From NCBI GenBank assembly GCA_934675045.1, contig CAKUPI010000034.1:1-11976 (forward strand): 11,976 nucleotides of DNA. Reading direction: 5' to 3'. A program made the translations under genes and the position numbers. The DNA comes from an uncultured Eubacteriales bacterium (GTDB lineage: Bacteria; Bacillota; Clostridia; Oscillospirales; Butyricicoccaceae). Every line of letters begins with the position of its first letter. The first letter of the stretch is position 1. Positions 323-11,948 of the stretch are shown in pieces. The notes beneath the pieces were generated by a model. It worked only from the letters and a program-made list of their open reading frames with translations, had not been told where the DNA came from and made no database searches.

Positions 323-1522
323 ATGAATGAAGCAATTTTATGGACACGGCATACCCCGGCGGGGCCGGAAAGCTGCGAAAGGCGGTTTACCGTCCAAAAC
401 GCGCAAATCGCGCACGGCTTCCACCGGAGCTTTCCGGAGTACGCGCCCACTCCGCTGGTCGATTTGAAGGGGCTGGCGGCCGCGCTGGGCGTGGCCGGCA
501 TCCGCGTCAAGGACGAGAGCTTCCGCTTTGGGCTCAACGCCTTCAAAGTGCTGGGCGGCAGCTTTTGCCTGGGCCGGTACATCGCCGGCCGGCTGGGGCA
601 GGACATCTGCGAGCTGCCCTATGACAGGCTGACCGGCAGGGCGGTCAGGGACAGGCTGGGCGAGCTGACCTTTGTGACGACGACGGACGGCAACCACGGC
701 CGCGGCATTGCGTGGACGGCCGGCCGTCTGGGGCAGAGGAGCGTGGTGTACATGCCCCGCGGCAGCTCGAGGGAGCGGCTGGAAAACATCCGCGCGCTGG
801 GCGCCGAAGCGTCCATTCTGGACCTGAACTACGACGACGCCGTTCGCTACGCCGGCCGGCAGGCGGAGGAAAAGGGCTGGATTCTCGTGCAGGACACCTC
901 GTGGGATGGGTATGAGGAAATCCCGGCCTGGATCATGCAGGGCTACACCACCATGGCGTGGGAAATGGTGCAGCAGCTGAAGGGCGAGCGTCCCACGCAC
1001 ATCTTTTTGCAGGCGGGCGTGGGGGCGATGGCGGGCGCTTTGACCGGGTTCTTTGCCGACTATTACGGCGCCGATCTGCCCGTGCTGACCGTTGTCGAGC
1101 CCAATAAGGCCGACTGCCTGTTCCGCACCGCCAAAGCGGCCGACGGCCGAGTGCACACGGTGGGCGGCGCGATGGACACCATCATGGCGGGGCTGTCCTG
1201 CGGCGAGCCCTGCGGCGTGGGCTGGCGGCAGCTCAACGCCCATGCCTCGCACTTCCTTTCGGTCCCCGACTGGGTGGCGGCCAAGGGAATGCGCGTGCTG
1301 GGCAGCCCCGCAAACGGCGACCCGCGGATCATCTCCGGCGAGAGCGGAGCCGTTACAACGGGGCTGGTGGCCGAGGTCATGCAGAACGAAAAGCTGTCGG
1401 CGCTGCGCGATCAGTTGGGTCTCAACGCCGGCTCCCGCATTCTCTGCGTCTCCACCGAGGGCGATACGGACAGGGAAAATTACCGCCGCATCGTCTGGGA
1501 CGGCGCCTGGCCCAGCTTTTAA
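323..1522 (+). CDS. dpaL: Diaminopropionate ammonia-lyase (PLP-dependent)
   Basis: A 399-residue fold-type II PLP enzyme of the DpaL/YgeX family. The family converts 2,3-diaminopropionate (D and L forms) to pyruvate and two ammonia in the cytosol. Visible landmarks are NAFKVLGG at 72-79 with the Schiff-base lysine K75, TTTDGNHGRG at 119-128 with D122 (equivalent to the acid/base Asp near 120 in the E. coli enzyme), LVQDTSWDGY from 188 with D191 (equivalent to Asp189), and the glycine-rich phosphate loop AGVGAMAG at 231-238. I chose ATG 323 because it gives the family's usual length (about 398) and has GAGGTGAA just upstream. The frame stays open to a TTG at 188, which would add 45 residues with no family counterpart. 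It stands alone, without the ygeW/ygeY/hydA partners of E. coli in view, and ends at a shared terminator. Confidence 0.93.
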   Translation: MNEAILWTRHTPAGPESCERRFTVQNAQIAHGFHRSFPEYAPTPLVDLKGLAAALGVAGIRVKDESFRFGLNAFKVLGGSFCLGRYIAGRLGQDICELPYDRLTGRAVRDRLGELTFVTTTDGNHGRGIAWTAGRLGQRSVVYMPRGSSRERLENIRALGAEASILDLNYDDAVRYAGRQAEEKGWILVQDTSWDGYEEIPAWIMQGYTTMAWEMVQQLKGERPTHIFLQAGVGAMAGALTGFFADYYGADLPVLTVVEPNKADCLFRTAKAADGRVHTVGGAMDTIMAGLSCGEPCGVGWRQLNAHASHFLSVPDWVAAKGMRVLGSPANGDPRIISGESGAVTTGLVAEVMQNEKLSALRDQLGLNAGSRILCVSTEGDTDRENYRRIVWDGAWPSF

Positions 1523-4360: not shown

Positions 4361-6247
4361 TTACTTCAGAAGATTGCTGTTGTTGACCATGGCGGCGCTG
4401 TAAGCAAAGAGGACGTCGGCCCCGTCAAAACGGACGTACTGGGGCAGCAGCTTGCTCGGCATGTAGCGCAGATCGACAAGGGTGATTTTGGAATACTGCT
4501 CGAGCAGCAGGGGGGCCAGGCTGCTGCCGTAGGAGTCGGAAAAGAGGACCAGATGCCGATCGCGCTTGGCCGCAGGGCTTTCGATAACGGTCAGCGGGCT
4601 CAGGCCGGACAGAAAGACATTATAGGCCGAGTCGCTTTGCAGCAAGGCGGTGTTGTACACCGTGACGGCCGAAGGGGTCTGCGTGTTGGCCACGACGGCG
4701 GCGTCGGTGCAGGGGCTGGTCAGCCAGGTGAGGGTCTCGGGCCGGATGTCCTTGACGGTCCGGCCGTAGGAGCCGGTGAAGCTGTCATAGGTGTGGGCGG
4801 TAAAGGCCTTCTTGTCAACGGAAAAGCCCATTTTTTCGCCCAGCGCATCGACAACGCCAAAAAGCCGCTCCTGCTTCCAGTGCGGGTCGGTCTGATAAAA
4901 GTCCTCGAGGGTGAGCGCGGAGGAAATGTCGATGAGGTTCCAGTCGTAAAGCTCGCCGCGCACCAGCCCGGCCATGGAATCGTGGCTCATGTACTGCGCG
5001 ATCTGCTCGCGGGCGTAGTAGCTTTTGTCGGGGATGATGGAGACAAAAACGTCGTTTTGGGGGAAATAGGTGTCGCGCAGCGCGGCCAGCTTGACGGTGA
5101 AGCGATGGACGGAGTCGGTATTCAGCGGGGCGGGGGCGGCGATATAGCTCTGCCCGACCTTCATCATGCCGCTGTCGTCCGGGGTTATCAGGCGGGGGTC
5201 CAGCGCGCGGAAGGCGCCGGCCAGCGCGCTGCCGCAGTCGTCGTCCATCGCCAGCAGCACGACATTGCCGATGCTTTCGACAAAAACATTGCTTTCGTCG
5301 ACGCCGACACAAATCCACTTGCGGGGGTCGACACTCTTGCGGATGAGCTTTTTGGCGGCGTCGACGTCGGCGCCTTCGGGCAGCCGAATCAGGCAGACGG
5401 AGTGGGCAACGGCCAGCATCATGGGCTCGACGGCAATGCCTTCGGTGATGGCAAGGGCGTTCGTGCCCAGATAGTACTGGATGTTTTCGGCGGTAATGGG
5501 CTCCGCTGTCGGCATGGAGGGGATGTAAATGTCGCGCACGGAGGCGTAGAGATAGGCCATGATGGCGGAAAGGCTGCTGTCGGCCGTCACCTTTTCGCCG
5601 GTGATGACCCGGCCGATGCGCAGGGAAAGATCGCTCAGACGCATGTCGGCAATCAGCTTCTGCGCAAGGGTCATGCCGGTGCCCTGTACCTCGGCGTCGA
5701 GGGCGGCGTAGGACAGCGAAACCATGTCGCCGCGCAGGAAGTTTTGCAGGTTGACGTCGGCGGGCACCTTGACGGCGCTGCCGAGCAGCGGCTGCCAGCG
5801 GCTCCAGACGGTGCCCTGCCCGTCGTCGCGGTAGCCGAGGGCGCGCAGGACAAAGGTGGAGAACATCTGCGCGCTGGCGGGGGAGTCGGGGTCAAAATGG
5901 GCGGCGTCGACGCCGGTGGTCAGGCCGGTGGAATAGGCGTAGGCGAGGTACTGCGCCGCGCCCTCCCAGCCGGGGGCGTCGGCAAAGGGATGGGAATACC
6001 CCTCGCCGTACAGGGCGTCGGTTTCCGCGCCCAGCAGGCGGATCAGCATGATAAGGGCCTCGAGCCGGGTGGGAGCGCGGTTCAGCTCGTAGCCGAGGTC
6101 CGAGCCTCGCAGCAGGGACATGGCCTTGAGCGCGTCGGCCTTTAAAGCGGCGCCGTCGGCGTCATAGGCCGCGGCAGGGGGGAGCAATGCGGCGCACAGG
6201 CACAAAACGAGCGCGGCCGCGGTCAGCTTGCGGAAGATGCGGTTCAT
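4361..6247 (-). CDS. Secreted SLH - DUF4358 - DHHW/AlgX-like SGNH fusion protein
   Basis: A 628-residue exported protein. Residues 1-27 form a signal peptide (basic NRIFRK, hydrophobic core, cleavage near PPAAA/YD). Residues about 35-140 hold two SLH-like repeats, the second clearest (HPFADAPGWEGAAQYLAYAYSTGL, then GVDAAHFDPDSPASAQMF), suggesting attachment to cell-wall polymer. Residues about 225-345 resemble DUF4358 (YIPSMPTAEPITAENIQYYLG, EGIAVEPMML, AHSVCLIRLPEGADVDAAKK, DPRKWICVG). Residues about 375-628 resemble DHHW/AlgX-type SGNH proteins linked to cell-envelope O-acylation, with TDPHW at 453-457 and the Ser block FSDSYGSSL at 569-577. The start is chosen from AGGAG 8 nt before ATG 6247 and the immediate signal peptide. 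The partner usually found next to such genes, an MBOAT acyltransferase, is not in view. Domain names rest on remembered family patterns, and the substrate is unknown. I see no convincing promoter in 6248-6334. Confidence 0.75.
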   Translation of the reverse strand: MNRIFRKLTAAALVLCLCAALLPPAAAYDADGAALKADALKAMSLLRGSDLGYELNRAPTRLEALIMLIRLLGAETDALYGEGYSHPFADAPGWEGAAQYLAYAYSTGLTTGVDAAHFDPDSPASAQMFSTFVLRALGYRDDGQGTVWSRWQPLLGSAVKVPADVNLQNFLRGDMVSLSYAALDAEVQGTGMTLAQKLIADMRLSDLSLRIGRVITGEKVTADSSLSAIMAYLYASVRDIYIPSMPTAEPITAENIQYYLGTNALAITEGIAVEPMMLAVAHSVCLIRLPEGADVDAAKKLIRKSVDPRKWICVGVDESNVFVESIGNVVLLAMDDDCGSALAGAFRALDPRLITPDDSGMMKVGQSYIAAPAPLNTDSVHRFTVKLAALRDTYFPQNDVFVSIIPDKSYYAREQIAQYMSHDSMAGLVRGELYDWNLIDISSALTLEDFYQTDPHWKQERLFGVVDALGEKMGFSVDKKAFTAHTYDSFTGSYGRTVKDIRPETLTWLTSPCTDAAVVANTQTPSAVTVYNTALLQSDSAYNVFLSGLSPLTVIESPAAKRDRHLVLFSDSYGSSLAPLLLEQYSKITLVDLRYMPSKLLPQYVRFDGADVLFAYSAAMVNNSNLLK

Positions 6248-10084: not shown

Positions 10085-10100
10085 CCAAATGCACAGCAAA

Positions 10101-10265
10101 GTAAGATAGCACAACTGCAAAAATCCTTGCAGACAGTCCTGCAACTGTTCACTGCAGACCCACCGCCCGTACACGCCTGTGCGGGCAGTTCGGCGGAGCT
10201 GCCTTTCCCCGCCTTCACAGCCCGCCGGCTTCAGTAGGTACTCATCGTCTCCGCGCCTCTATCAA
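10101..10265 (-). promoter_or_regulatory. Lysine riboswitch (L-box) of the lysC operon
   Basis: The minus-strand RNA carries L-box landmarks in order: GAUAGAGGCGCGG (P1 strand plus loop-E region) from 10263, GAUGAGUA, CUGUGAAGGCGGGGAAAGGC, the CUCCGCCGAA block, GCAGGACUGUCUGCAAGG, and the closing GCUAUC (10110-10105) that pairs with GAUAG to form P1. The order and spacing match the B. subtilis lysC leader. An intrinsic terminator follows, so bound lysine should stop transcription before lysC-dapA-dapB-dapH. Together with the two promoters this accounts for most of the 467-nt gene-free stretch 9982-10448. Confidence 0.93.
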
Positions 10266-10273
10266 CGCATTAA

Positions 10274-10448: not shown

Positions 10449-11558
10449 ATGAAAAAAACCATTCAGTACCGCCGCGAGCTGCACGCCATACCGGAAGTCG
10501 GCCGCGCGGAAGAAAAAACGGGCCGCTATATTGCGGACAGGCTGGCGCAGCTCGATTGCCTGACCGAGCGCGTGGTCGGCACGGGCAGCATCGCGTTTTT
10601 TGACAACGGGGCAGACGAAACGGTGGCCTTCCGCGCCGACATCGACGCGCTTCCCATCGCCGAGGAGACCGGGCTGCCCTTTGCCTCGAAAAACGGCTGT
10701 ATGCACGCCTGCGGGCACGATGCCCACATGGCCATGCTGCTGTCGCTGGCCGATTACCTGAGCCAAAACAAAAGCCGGTATCAAAAGAATGTGCTGCTGA
10801 TTTTCCAGCCGTCCGAGGAGACCATCGGCGGCGCAAAGCCCATCTGCGAGGCGGGGGTGCTCGAACGCTTCCGCGTCAGCAAGGTATTCGGCCTGCACGT
10901 CTGGCCCAAGGCCAAAGCGGGCACGCTCAGCTCGCGCCCCGGCCCCCTGATGGCGCAGGCGGCCGAGCTGACGCTGACGGTACACGGCAAAAGCGCCCAC
11001 TGCGCCCGCCCCGATCTCGGCATTGACGCGCTGGCCGCACTGGCCGACATCGTCTCTGAGCTGAACCGTTATAAACGGGAGGACATCGCTCCGGGAACCG
11101 AGTTTTTGCTGCACGTCGGGAAAATGCAGGGGGGAGACGCCGGCAACATCGTCTGCGAGACGGCGTGCGCAAAGGGCAGCGTCCGCGCCTTTGAACCGGG
11201 CGTTTTCGATATGCTGTGCGCCAAAATTCGCGAGACGGCGGCGGCCGTCGACGCGCGCTGCGGCACGACCACAGAGGTCGGCATCGGCGACGCCTATCCG
11301 CCCGTCAACAACGACCCCGCGCTGTATGAGGAGTACAAAAAGGCCATGGCGAAAGCCGGCGTCGAGTTGCTCGAGGCCGACAAGACGGTCATCGGCGAGG
11401 ACTTTTCCGAGTACCAAAAGCGGGTGCCCGGCGTTTTTGCCTTTTTGGGCCTCGGGGACGTGCCCTCGCTGCACAACAACCGCTTTGACTTTGACGAAGA
11501 GCTGATGGAGGTCGGAATCCGCGCCTTTATCGGCCTGCTGGACCATTTTGCGCGATAA
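10449..11558 (+). CDS. dapL: M20D amidohydrolase, probable N-acetyldiaminopimelate deacetylase
   Basis: A 369-residue M20D metallopeptidase-fold amidohydrolase. Likely metal ligands are C88 and H90 in MHACGHDAHM, E123/E124 in FQPSEETIGG, H150 in GLHVW and H342 in SLHNN; the lid/dimerisation domain runs about 172-285 (LTLTVHGKSAHCARP, GDAGNIVCETA). Length, the RADIDALPIAEETGLPFAS block and VLLIFQPSEETIGGAKPICEAGVL resemble B. subtilis YkuR, which deacetylates N-acetyl-LL-DAP. Lying back to back with an operon that ends in dapH, the acetylase whose product needs this deacetylase, makes that role likely. M20D also contains hippurate and indole-acetyl-amino-acid hydrolases, so the exact substrate is inferred. 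The start has GGAGG 6 nt upstream. No clear U-tract terminator follows. Confidence 0.85.
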   Translation: MKKTIQYRRELHAIPEVGRAEEKTGRYIADRLAQLDCLTERVVGTGSIAFFDNGADETVAFRADIDALPIAEETGLPFASKNGCMHACGHDAHMAMLLSLADYLSQNKSRYQKNVLLIFQPSEETIGGAKPICEAGVLERFRVSKVFGLHVWPKAKAGTLSSRPGPLMAQAAELTLTVHGKSAHCARPDLGIDALAALADIVSELNRYKREDIAPGTEFLLHVGKMQGGDAGNIVCETACAKGSVRAFEPGVFDMLCAKIRETAAAVDARCGTTTEVGIGDAYPPVNNDPALYEEYKKAMAKAGVELLEADKTVIGEDFSEYQKRVPGVFAFLGLGDVPSLHNNRFDFDEELMEVGIRAFIGLLDHFAR

Positions 11559-11585: not shown

Positions 11586-11614
11586 TTGACACTCCTATCG
11601 GAATAAGCTATAAT
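11586..11614 (+). promoter_or_regulatory. Perfect consensus promoter of the selenoprotein gene
   Basis: TTGACA (11586-11591), exactly 17 nt, then TATAAT (11609-11614): a fully consensus sigma-A promoter and the strongest in the window. The predicted start is near 11621, giving a leader of about 37 nt. Confidence 0.93.
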
Positions 11615-11635
11615 TAATGTATGAATTATTCCGAT
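11597..11635. promoter_or_regulatory. Inverted-repeat operator overlapping the promoter
   Basis: ATCGGAATAA (11597-11606) and TTATTCCGAT (11626-11635) are a perfect 10-bp inverted repeat with a 19-bp spacer. The left half lies between -35 and -10, and the right half just after the start point. Since the left half is not transcribed, this is a DNA site, best explained as a repressor operator. I do not recognise the cognate regulator. Confidence 0.7.
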
Positions 11636-11657
11636 TGCCAATAAAAGGAGGGTCATC

Positions 11658-11948
11658 ATGCATAAGGTAGCATTGTACGGCAACCCGTATTGAGGGGGCT
11701 GCGCCCCGGTCAAAGAGGTTCTTTGCCAGAACAGCGTCAAGTACACCTACATCGACATCACCTCGGGCATTACGCCCCTGCGCGCCTTTCTCAAAATCCG
11801 CGACACGTCGGAGGCCCACGCGCCGGCGCGGGAAAAGCATACCATCGGCATCCCGACTCTCGTCATCGACGACGAGGTGTATATCGTCTCACCCGAGCAG
11901 GCGCAGCAGCTCATCGATCAATATGATTTGAAAAACACCGCCGAATAA
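11658..11948 (+). CDS. Selenocysteine-containing glutaredoxin-like protein (UGA recoded at codon 12)
   Basis: From ATG 11658 to TAA 11946-11948 one frame encodes 96 residues, interrupted only by TGA at 11691-11693. Read as selenocysteine (U) it gives a small thioredoxin-fold protein of glutaredoxin type: MHKVALYGNPY, then the redox motif U12-G-G-C15, then APVKEVL, a YTYIDITSG strand, LRAFLKIRDT, the cis-proline motif GIPTLVIDD (P66) and a C-terminal helix. Coding signal and family pattern continue unbroken after the TGA, and UGA sits where glutaredoxins carry the nucleophilic Cys of CxxC. A bacterial SECIS hairpin follows at the right distance. The ribosome site AGGAGG (11646-11651) is 6 nt from the ATG. 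Likely role: thiol/disulfide or peroxide-related redox chemistry in the cytosol; partner unknown. A nonsense-mutated pseudogene is the alternative, made unlikely by the SECIS. Sec machinery genes lie outside the window. Confidence 0.88.
11694..11727 (+). promoter_or_regulatory. Bacterial SECIS element for Sec insertion
   Basis: Directly after the UGA (11691-11693), GG (11708-11709), a bulged U (11710) and CAAAG (11711-11715) pair with CUUUG (11721-11725) and CC (11726-11727) around the apical loop AGGUU (11716-11720). The bulged U and the GGU in the loop match the SelB-binding features of the E. coli fdhF element, and 22 nt separate UGA from the loop, within the known bacterial range (about 16-37). 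An extra small stem GGGGC/GCCCC (11695-11699/11703-11707) fills the gap. Confidence 0.87.

Follow-up and report, generated by a model that had tools for sequence, protein, structure and literature searches.

In the window, by which we mean the whole stretch of 11,976 nucleotides analysed here, a gene on the plus strand (11658-11948) very likely encodes a glutaredoxin-like selenoprotein of 96 amino acids with the motif U12-G-G-C15, as judged from its reading frame, a Pfam match, its orthologues and a structure model. The frame opens with an ATG at 11658, continues for 11 codons to a TGA at 11691-11693 and then stays open to a TAA at 11946-11948; this TGA, at codon 12, is the single in-frame UGA between 11658 and 11948. 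When the UGA is read as selenocysteine (Sec), a protein of 96 residues results that starts MHKVALYGNPYUGGCAPVKEVL, with U at residue 12 and C at residue 15. A preliminary description of this DNA had given the same coordinates and the same reading, a frame cut after 11 codons that yields 96 residues with Sec, and was correct by sequence. A contig scan of genomes located four orthologous loci (L001-L004), all in Clostridia and 74-82% identical.

The gene is preceded by a promoter of the sigma-70/A type, TTGACA-17-TATAAT, at 11586-11614 on the plus strand, in which TTGACA (11586-11591) and TATAAT (11609-11614) are separated by a 17-nt spacer, and by a Shine-Dalgarno sequence, AAGGAGGG, at 11645-11652 on the same strand. 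Both hexamers with their 17-nt spacing recur in all five orthologues, the window included, as does AGGNGG. All 12 of 12 promoter positions match the consensus and AAGGAGGG stands before the ATG, which bears out the earlier claim of a consensus promoter and a Shine-Dalgarno ahead of the frame.

Over the -10 region, we found a candidate operator without strand, the dyad ATCGGAATAA-N19-TTATTCCGAT at 11597-11635, whose perfect 10-bp arms (ATCGGAATAA at 11597-11606 and TTATTCCGAT at 11626-11635) are centred on 11616. With the centre kept at the same distance from the -10 hexamer, 10, 8, 7, 5 and 7 of 10 arm positions pair in the window and in L001 to L004, respectively, and the pairs summed over the five orthologues amount to 37, compared with at most 24 at 69 other centres tested. 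The letters of the dyad differ between species, so that it is the symmetry, rather than the sequence, that is conserved. This partial conservation supports an operator, with L003 as a weak case, and repression could act through the dyad over the promoter. A search for the dyad pattern in the four genomes G001 to G004 returned an exact match only at the selenoprotein gene in G001, with further one-mismatch sites in G001 (1), G002 (2), G003 (2) and G004 (0); a reversed-pattern control gave 2 sites in G002 and 0 in each of G001, G003 and G004. The operator-controlled promoter that had been proposed for this gene is supported by a partly conserved dyad; no regulon could be named from the pattern search in these four genomes.

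The upstream neighbour on the plus strand, outside the finding itself, is an M20-type amidohydrolase (10449-11558) assigned through NCBIfam (TIGR01891); by eye, L001 and L003 have a similar open reading frame ahead of their selenoprotein gene, and L002 does not. The amidohydrolase adjoins a DAP cluster on the minus strand, comprising lysC, dapA, dapB and an acetyl-type dapD, upstream of which we observed a lysine riboswitch (10099-10269, minus strand, 94.8 bits). Given the acetyl-type DapD, the amidohydrolase may be an N-acetyl-diaminopimelate deacetylase. Elsewhere, the window holds a diaminopropionate ammonia-lyase at 323-1522 (plus strand), over its NCBIfam cut-off, and at 4361-6247 (minus strand) a 628-aa protein that matches no NCBIfam model at 1e-10 and for which a similar open reading frame was seen by eye in L002.

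Conservation of the UGA codon and its exchange with cysteine

The proposed Sec codon, UGA for residue 12 (11691-11693, plus strand), is invariant in all five sequences, that is, in the window and its four closest orthologues, all four of which combine TGA at codon 12 with U-G-G-C; the identical TGA is therefore carried by four other assemblies. Downstream of the TGA, conservation at the protein level extends to all four relatives, with 75-83% identity, and over codons 26-96 the ten pairs formed by the five sequences differ 132, 65 and 347 times at codon positions 1, 2 and 3, respectively. Based on the protein conservation beyond the TGA and on this codon-position pattern of differences, the frame is more than a chance opening.

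Is the codon shared beyond these close orthologues? Profile searches matched 21 of 394 genomes in the order and 18 of 87 in the GTDB family; in the class, a wider profile with many weak hits matched 96 of 391 genomes, and loci were fetched for the best 30 of these 96 matches. After removal of duplicates, and leaving out L050, which lacks the N-terminus, and L041, in which a CKDC lies beyond the stretch searched, the fetched loci gave 59 distinct copies. Residue 12 is encoded by UGA in 30 of them and by a Cys codon in 29, and by nothing else, so the expectation from the preliminary description that homologues would carry either UGA or Cys at this position was confirmed in every copy extracted.

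The two residues between Sec and Cys are far less constant. Among the 30 UGA copies the spacer is GG in 9, PD in 6, PG in 5 and KT in 2, while AP, PS, SG, GA, QD, PE, PQ and KD were each seen once. Thus, UGGC is no oddity, and the earlier view of it as a special motif does not hold, with GG in only 9 of 30 UGA copies and 11 other spacer pairs in use.

In a tree of the 59 rows, which is built on few columns and has many unresolved forks, 38 rows (30 Sec and 8 Cys) fall on one side with a support of 99/90. The Sec/Cys label requires at least five changes on this tree, three of which are forced by well-supported branches. Two genomes carry tandem copies: G174 (locus L024) has a UGGC copy next to a CGDC copy, and G277 (locus L025) has two UGA copies, UKTC beside UAPC. 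The Cys copy of G174 falls within a supported set of 9 Sec rows and 1 Cys row (100/97), and this position inside a Sec-rich set suggests that the copy arose by a change from Sec to Cys. With the tandem pair of G174, the contribution of Sec could also be tested directly.

A bSECIS-like hairpin and the selenocysteine machinery of relatives

A hairpin resembling a bSECIS element, GG(U)CAAAG-AGGUU-CUUUGCC, lies at 11708-11727 on the plus strand, as seen in unconstrained folding and from its conservation in UGA copies. It starts with the 15th nucleotide after the UGA, and its apical loop follows the UGA at a distance of 22 nt. The upper stem has 5 bp, or 6 bp if an A-U pair within the loop is counted; below it come a bulged U and two further G-C pairs, and the loop contains GG. 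All 30 UGA copies have, at the bSECIS distance, a stem of 5 bp or more and a G in the loop. Over the full published range, stems of at least 5 bp were found in 30/30 UGA copies versus 3/29 Cys copies and 1830/6000 random synonymous recodings of the UGA copies, and stems of at least 6 bp in 30/30, 1/29 and 783/6000, respectively. Within a narrow range, which was set after seeing the data (5 bp or more in the stem, 3-5 nt in the loop, 21-24 nt after the codon), the counts were 30/30, 0/29 and 817/6000, and a hairpin at the same place is absent from all 29 Cys copies. A 4-bp stem does not discriminate, some hairpin of this kind occurring in 13 of the 29 Cys copies.

In an alignment of the 30 UGA copies, 89% of cells pair. 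Two stem pairs have changed on both sides: pair 21-35 is GC in 25 copies and CG in 5, and pair 19-37 is GC in 15, UA in 6, CG in 2, UG in 1 and unpaired in 6. The five copies with CG at pair 21-35 come from the window and its close orthologues, probably through one event. Pair 20-36 is unpaired in 17 of the 30 copies. The covariation score, the number of paired cells and the number of cells with a two-sided change were reached by 0 of 500 shuffles and were lower at every slide; the count of pairs with a two-sided change (324/500) and that of further pair types (108/500) did not rise above shuffles. Furthermore, synonymous change is strongly reduced at the hairpin in the five orthologues: 11 of 12 degenerate codons with an invariant amino acid are themselves invariant within codons 13-25, compared with 11 of 47 elsewhere (p=2.4e-5).

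The folding energy gives a different picture from position and conservation. Set against dinucleotide shuffles, it does not reach significance by itself (z -0.80; -1.39 and +0.10). The window hairpin has an energy of -10.1 kcal/mol with the lower-stem pairs and of -6.9 kcal/mol for the hairpin alone. A hairpin-only rule of -7.5 kcal/mol is passed by 10 of 30 UGA copies, among them the window and none of its four close orthologues, and by 2 of 29 Cys copies. Of 1000 synonymous recodings made from the window, 31 satisfy this rule and 2 are as stable as the native sequence. Unconstrained folds form the hairpin in 10 of 13 UGA copies tried, the failures being L004, L029 and one L025 copy, and gave no hairpin for the L024 Cys copy. 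An RNA fold downstream of the UGA, proposed as a check in the preliminary description, did form the hairpin without constraint, but not with an energy that is significant alone, and the case for the hairpin is one of position, conservation and covariation. At its gathering threshold, Rfam matched only the lysine riboswitch in the window. As a hairpin within a gene, kept by protein and RNA constraint at once and not seen at that place in Cys siblings, it would offer a clear example of a bSECIS.

The Sec genes whose presence the preliminary description wanted checked, selA, selB, selC (tRNA-Sec) and selD, were looked for in relatives and found there. selB exceeds the cut-off in all four closest relatives and tRNA-Sec in three of the four; selA, selB and tRNA-Sec stand in one row in G002, G003 and G004, and in G001 only 134 nt of contig are left beyond the selB match. 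selA was detected in 6 of 7 genomes tested and selD in all 7 (G001-G004, G174, G277 and G421), where the best match contains an in-frame TGA in each case, so that SelD itself is probably a selenoprotein in these seven genomes. Within the GTDB family (87 genomes), selB exceeds its cut-off in 13 of 14 genomes with a UGA copy versus 6 of 73 others (Fisher p=3.4e-10, only a guide, as the genomes are related); here a partial selB below the cut-off in G428 was counted as lacking, and the profile used, A2, may miss distant UGA copies. G421 has a UGA copy and lacks selA and selB, yet has a selD with UGA, from which we suspect an assembly gap as the likely cause of the missing genes.

From computation, we thus have a conserved UGA, an exchange of Sec and Cys, a hairpin with two-sided pair changes, the Sec machinery of relatives and a fold model of the glutaredoxin type (see below). 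We are highly confident that the product of the gene is a small redoxin of the selenoprotein class, built on a glutaredoxin/thioredoxin fold, in which Sec is inserted at the UGA of codon 12 by means of the hairpin; read-through of the UGA itself is very probable from sequence. SelB carrying Sec-tRNA(Sec) would bind the hairpin at 11708-11727, and selenocysteine would then be inserted at codon 12.

Fold, family and probable function of the protein

With U read as C, the window protein passes Pfam Glutaredoxin (PF00462; 28.5 bits against a cut-off of 22.9), a model that all 15 members of alignment A3 match at E<=0.01. Its best NCBIfam match, TIGR02196 (YruB), stays below the cut-off (33.8 against 88.55 bits) and is likewise matched at E<=0.01 by all 15 members; for the other 14 members NCBIfam comparisons comprise E-values only (best 1.6e-10, YruB), so some of them may pass cut-offs. 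For the window protein, the YruB, mycoredoxin, UXX-star and glutaredoxin 3 models of NCBIfam are all below cut-off, with 22.6 of 66 bits for NF041212 and 17.5 of 100 bits for NF041211. An AlphaFold model from a 64-sequence alignment, used in place of an unusable one from 5 sequences (pLDDT 40.5), reached a mean pLDDT of 85.1 with strands and helices in the expected order. Residue 12 is placed just ahead of helix 15-24, and a G-x-P at 64-66 ahead of strand 67-70; This agrees with the arrangement of glutaredoxins, in which a C/U-x-x-C motif (here U12-x-x-C15) precedes helix 1 and a Pro, here a putative cis-Pro, precedes the following strand. Among the 50 matches listed in a PDB fold search, most were glutaredoxins, together with the thioredoxin-like BC3987, at query TM-scores of 0.49-0.64. 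The earlier assignment to a glutaredoxin-type selenoprotein, in which Sec is the nucleophile and a Cys follows at +3, thus gains support from homologues, Pfam and the putative hairpin.

Selenocysteine-containing glutaredoxins are already known, and the gene belongs to that known kind. Table 1 of PMC13188914 gives a Sec-containing glutaredoxin (PF00462, UxxC) as experimentally verified, PMC1794560 names a glutaredoxin among the selenoproteins of Geobacter sulfurreducens, Alkaliphilus metalliredigenes and Moorella thermoacetica, and PMC9312934 lists a glutaredoxin with UxxC as well as a YruB-type 'distant Grx-like protein 1' (TIGR02196) with UxxT. The window protein shares with the verified Sec-glutaredoxin the Pfam Glutaredoxin match, a Sec nucleophile, Cys at +3, a glutaredoxin fold and a clostridial host. 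That verification reportedly goes back to a protein of Clostridium/Alkaliphilus oremlandii. The two are set apart by the family profile, which matches the PDB glutaredoxin 7c10 ('Dithiol cGrx1'), presumably the oremlandii glutaredoxin, only over residues 2-46. They also differ in their possible partner: for the Sec-glutaredoxin of C. oremlandii, MsrA is the reported partner (Kim 2011, by its title), and a role in the reduction of a selenoprotein MsrA was rejected for the window protein, with no MsrA match in any of its four relatives and 12 of 14 control genomes matched. Unlike the YruB family (TIGR02196), the protein has UxxC rather than UxxT and a longer middle with an LK.FL..RD signature. 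It resembles the UXX-star families NF041212, NF041211 and NF041114 in being a small glutaredoxin-like selenoprotein, but keeps a Cys at +3 and scores below cut-off against the first two. Among the papers listed in a literature search, which mostly did not extend to subscription papers, none was specific to the UGGC subfamily.

Most likely, the selenol of Sec12 in U-G-G-C would attack a disulfide or another oxidised substrate, and Cys15 would resolve the resulting selenenylsulfide. What would the electron donor be? A selenoprotein that acts as a classical glutathione-dependent glutaredoxin would agree with the Pfam Glutaredoxin match and with the GSSG- and GSH-bound cGrx2 among the fold matches, but we regard it as unlikely, given the score of 15.5 of 90 bits against the classical glutaredoxin 3 model and the lack of a GshF match in all four relatives, the latter being tempered in that no control genome exceeded the cut-off, the assemblies may be incomplete and GshF is one glutathione route. 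Also counting against it, the C-terminal GG motif usual for glutathione binding appears to be absent from the protein. Independence from glutathione is only suggested by these observations.

A different role, in which Sec12 and Cys15 of the selenoprotein bind a metal, a metalloid or another ligand instead of carrying out disulfide redox chemistry, might be suggested by the weak similarity to the UXX-star models, whose Sec may be a metal ligand (as put forward in PMC13188914), and by ArsD metallochaperones among the 50 fold matches listed. We judge it rather improbable: the resolving Cys is present in 82 of the 83 listed database relatives that reach it, and most of the best fold and family matches are redox glutaredoxins. 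A selenoprotein redoxin thus remains our preferred reading.

Database records and the meaning of the UGA

How is the family recorded in databases? All 7 relatives from a first protein search start downstream of the UGA, and a profile search gave 412. Of the 120 listed among these 412, 46 have W at residue 12, 37 have C and another 37 lack the residue, so that 83 of 120 have a Trp at the Sec position or start after it. Going by the protein records, W at residue 12 would stem from gene calling with a code in which UGA is Trp, and the short records would begin after the UGA.

The records bear on two further readings of the codon. If the TGA were a real stop, owing to a sequence error, a pseudogene or a later start, the locus would encode an 11-codon peptide or a downstream fragment, in line with the 7 of 7 matches of the first search that lack the stretch up to the TGA. 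This is very improbable, since the TGA is invariant in five sequences with protein conservation on both sides, sibling copies have Cys at that position, and the fragment would be left without the active site. A reading of UGA as tryptophan (genetic code 4 or 25), to which the 46 W records might be taken to point had they not probably arisen from the code chosen by the gene caller, is excluded in practice, because UGA terminates dapD, dapB and dapA in the window, only the selenoprotein gene among 10 window genes checked has an in-frame TGA (0 of the other 9), L001 and L003 end the same gene with TGA, copies read from DNA replace UGA by Cys and not by Trp, and Sec genes are present in relatives. 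Both the Trp and the pseudogene reading were thus rejected on the TGA stops of other window genes and on the conservation across the TGA.

Returning to the selenoprotein, we can picture, as a tentative and doubtful extension, a large and mostly unrecorded family of glutathione-independent 'seleno-redoxins' in Clostridia, in which Sec would be common in one large part of the tree, the spacers (GG, PD, PG, KT and others) would tune the redox potential, and tandem Sec/Sec and Sec/Cys copies would serve as selenium-dependent and -independent versions, with a dedicated repressor at the dyad over the perfect promoter and the gene switched on under oxidative or selenium-replete conditions. At its core, the finding suggests that Clostridia share a conserved selenoprotein subfamily that is often misrecorded in databases, and judging from the share of listed relatives with a Trp or a late start, counts of selenoproteins in these bacteria are probably too low.
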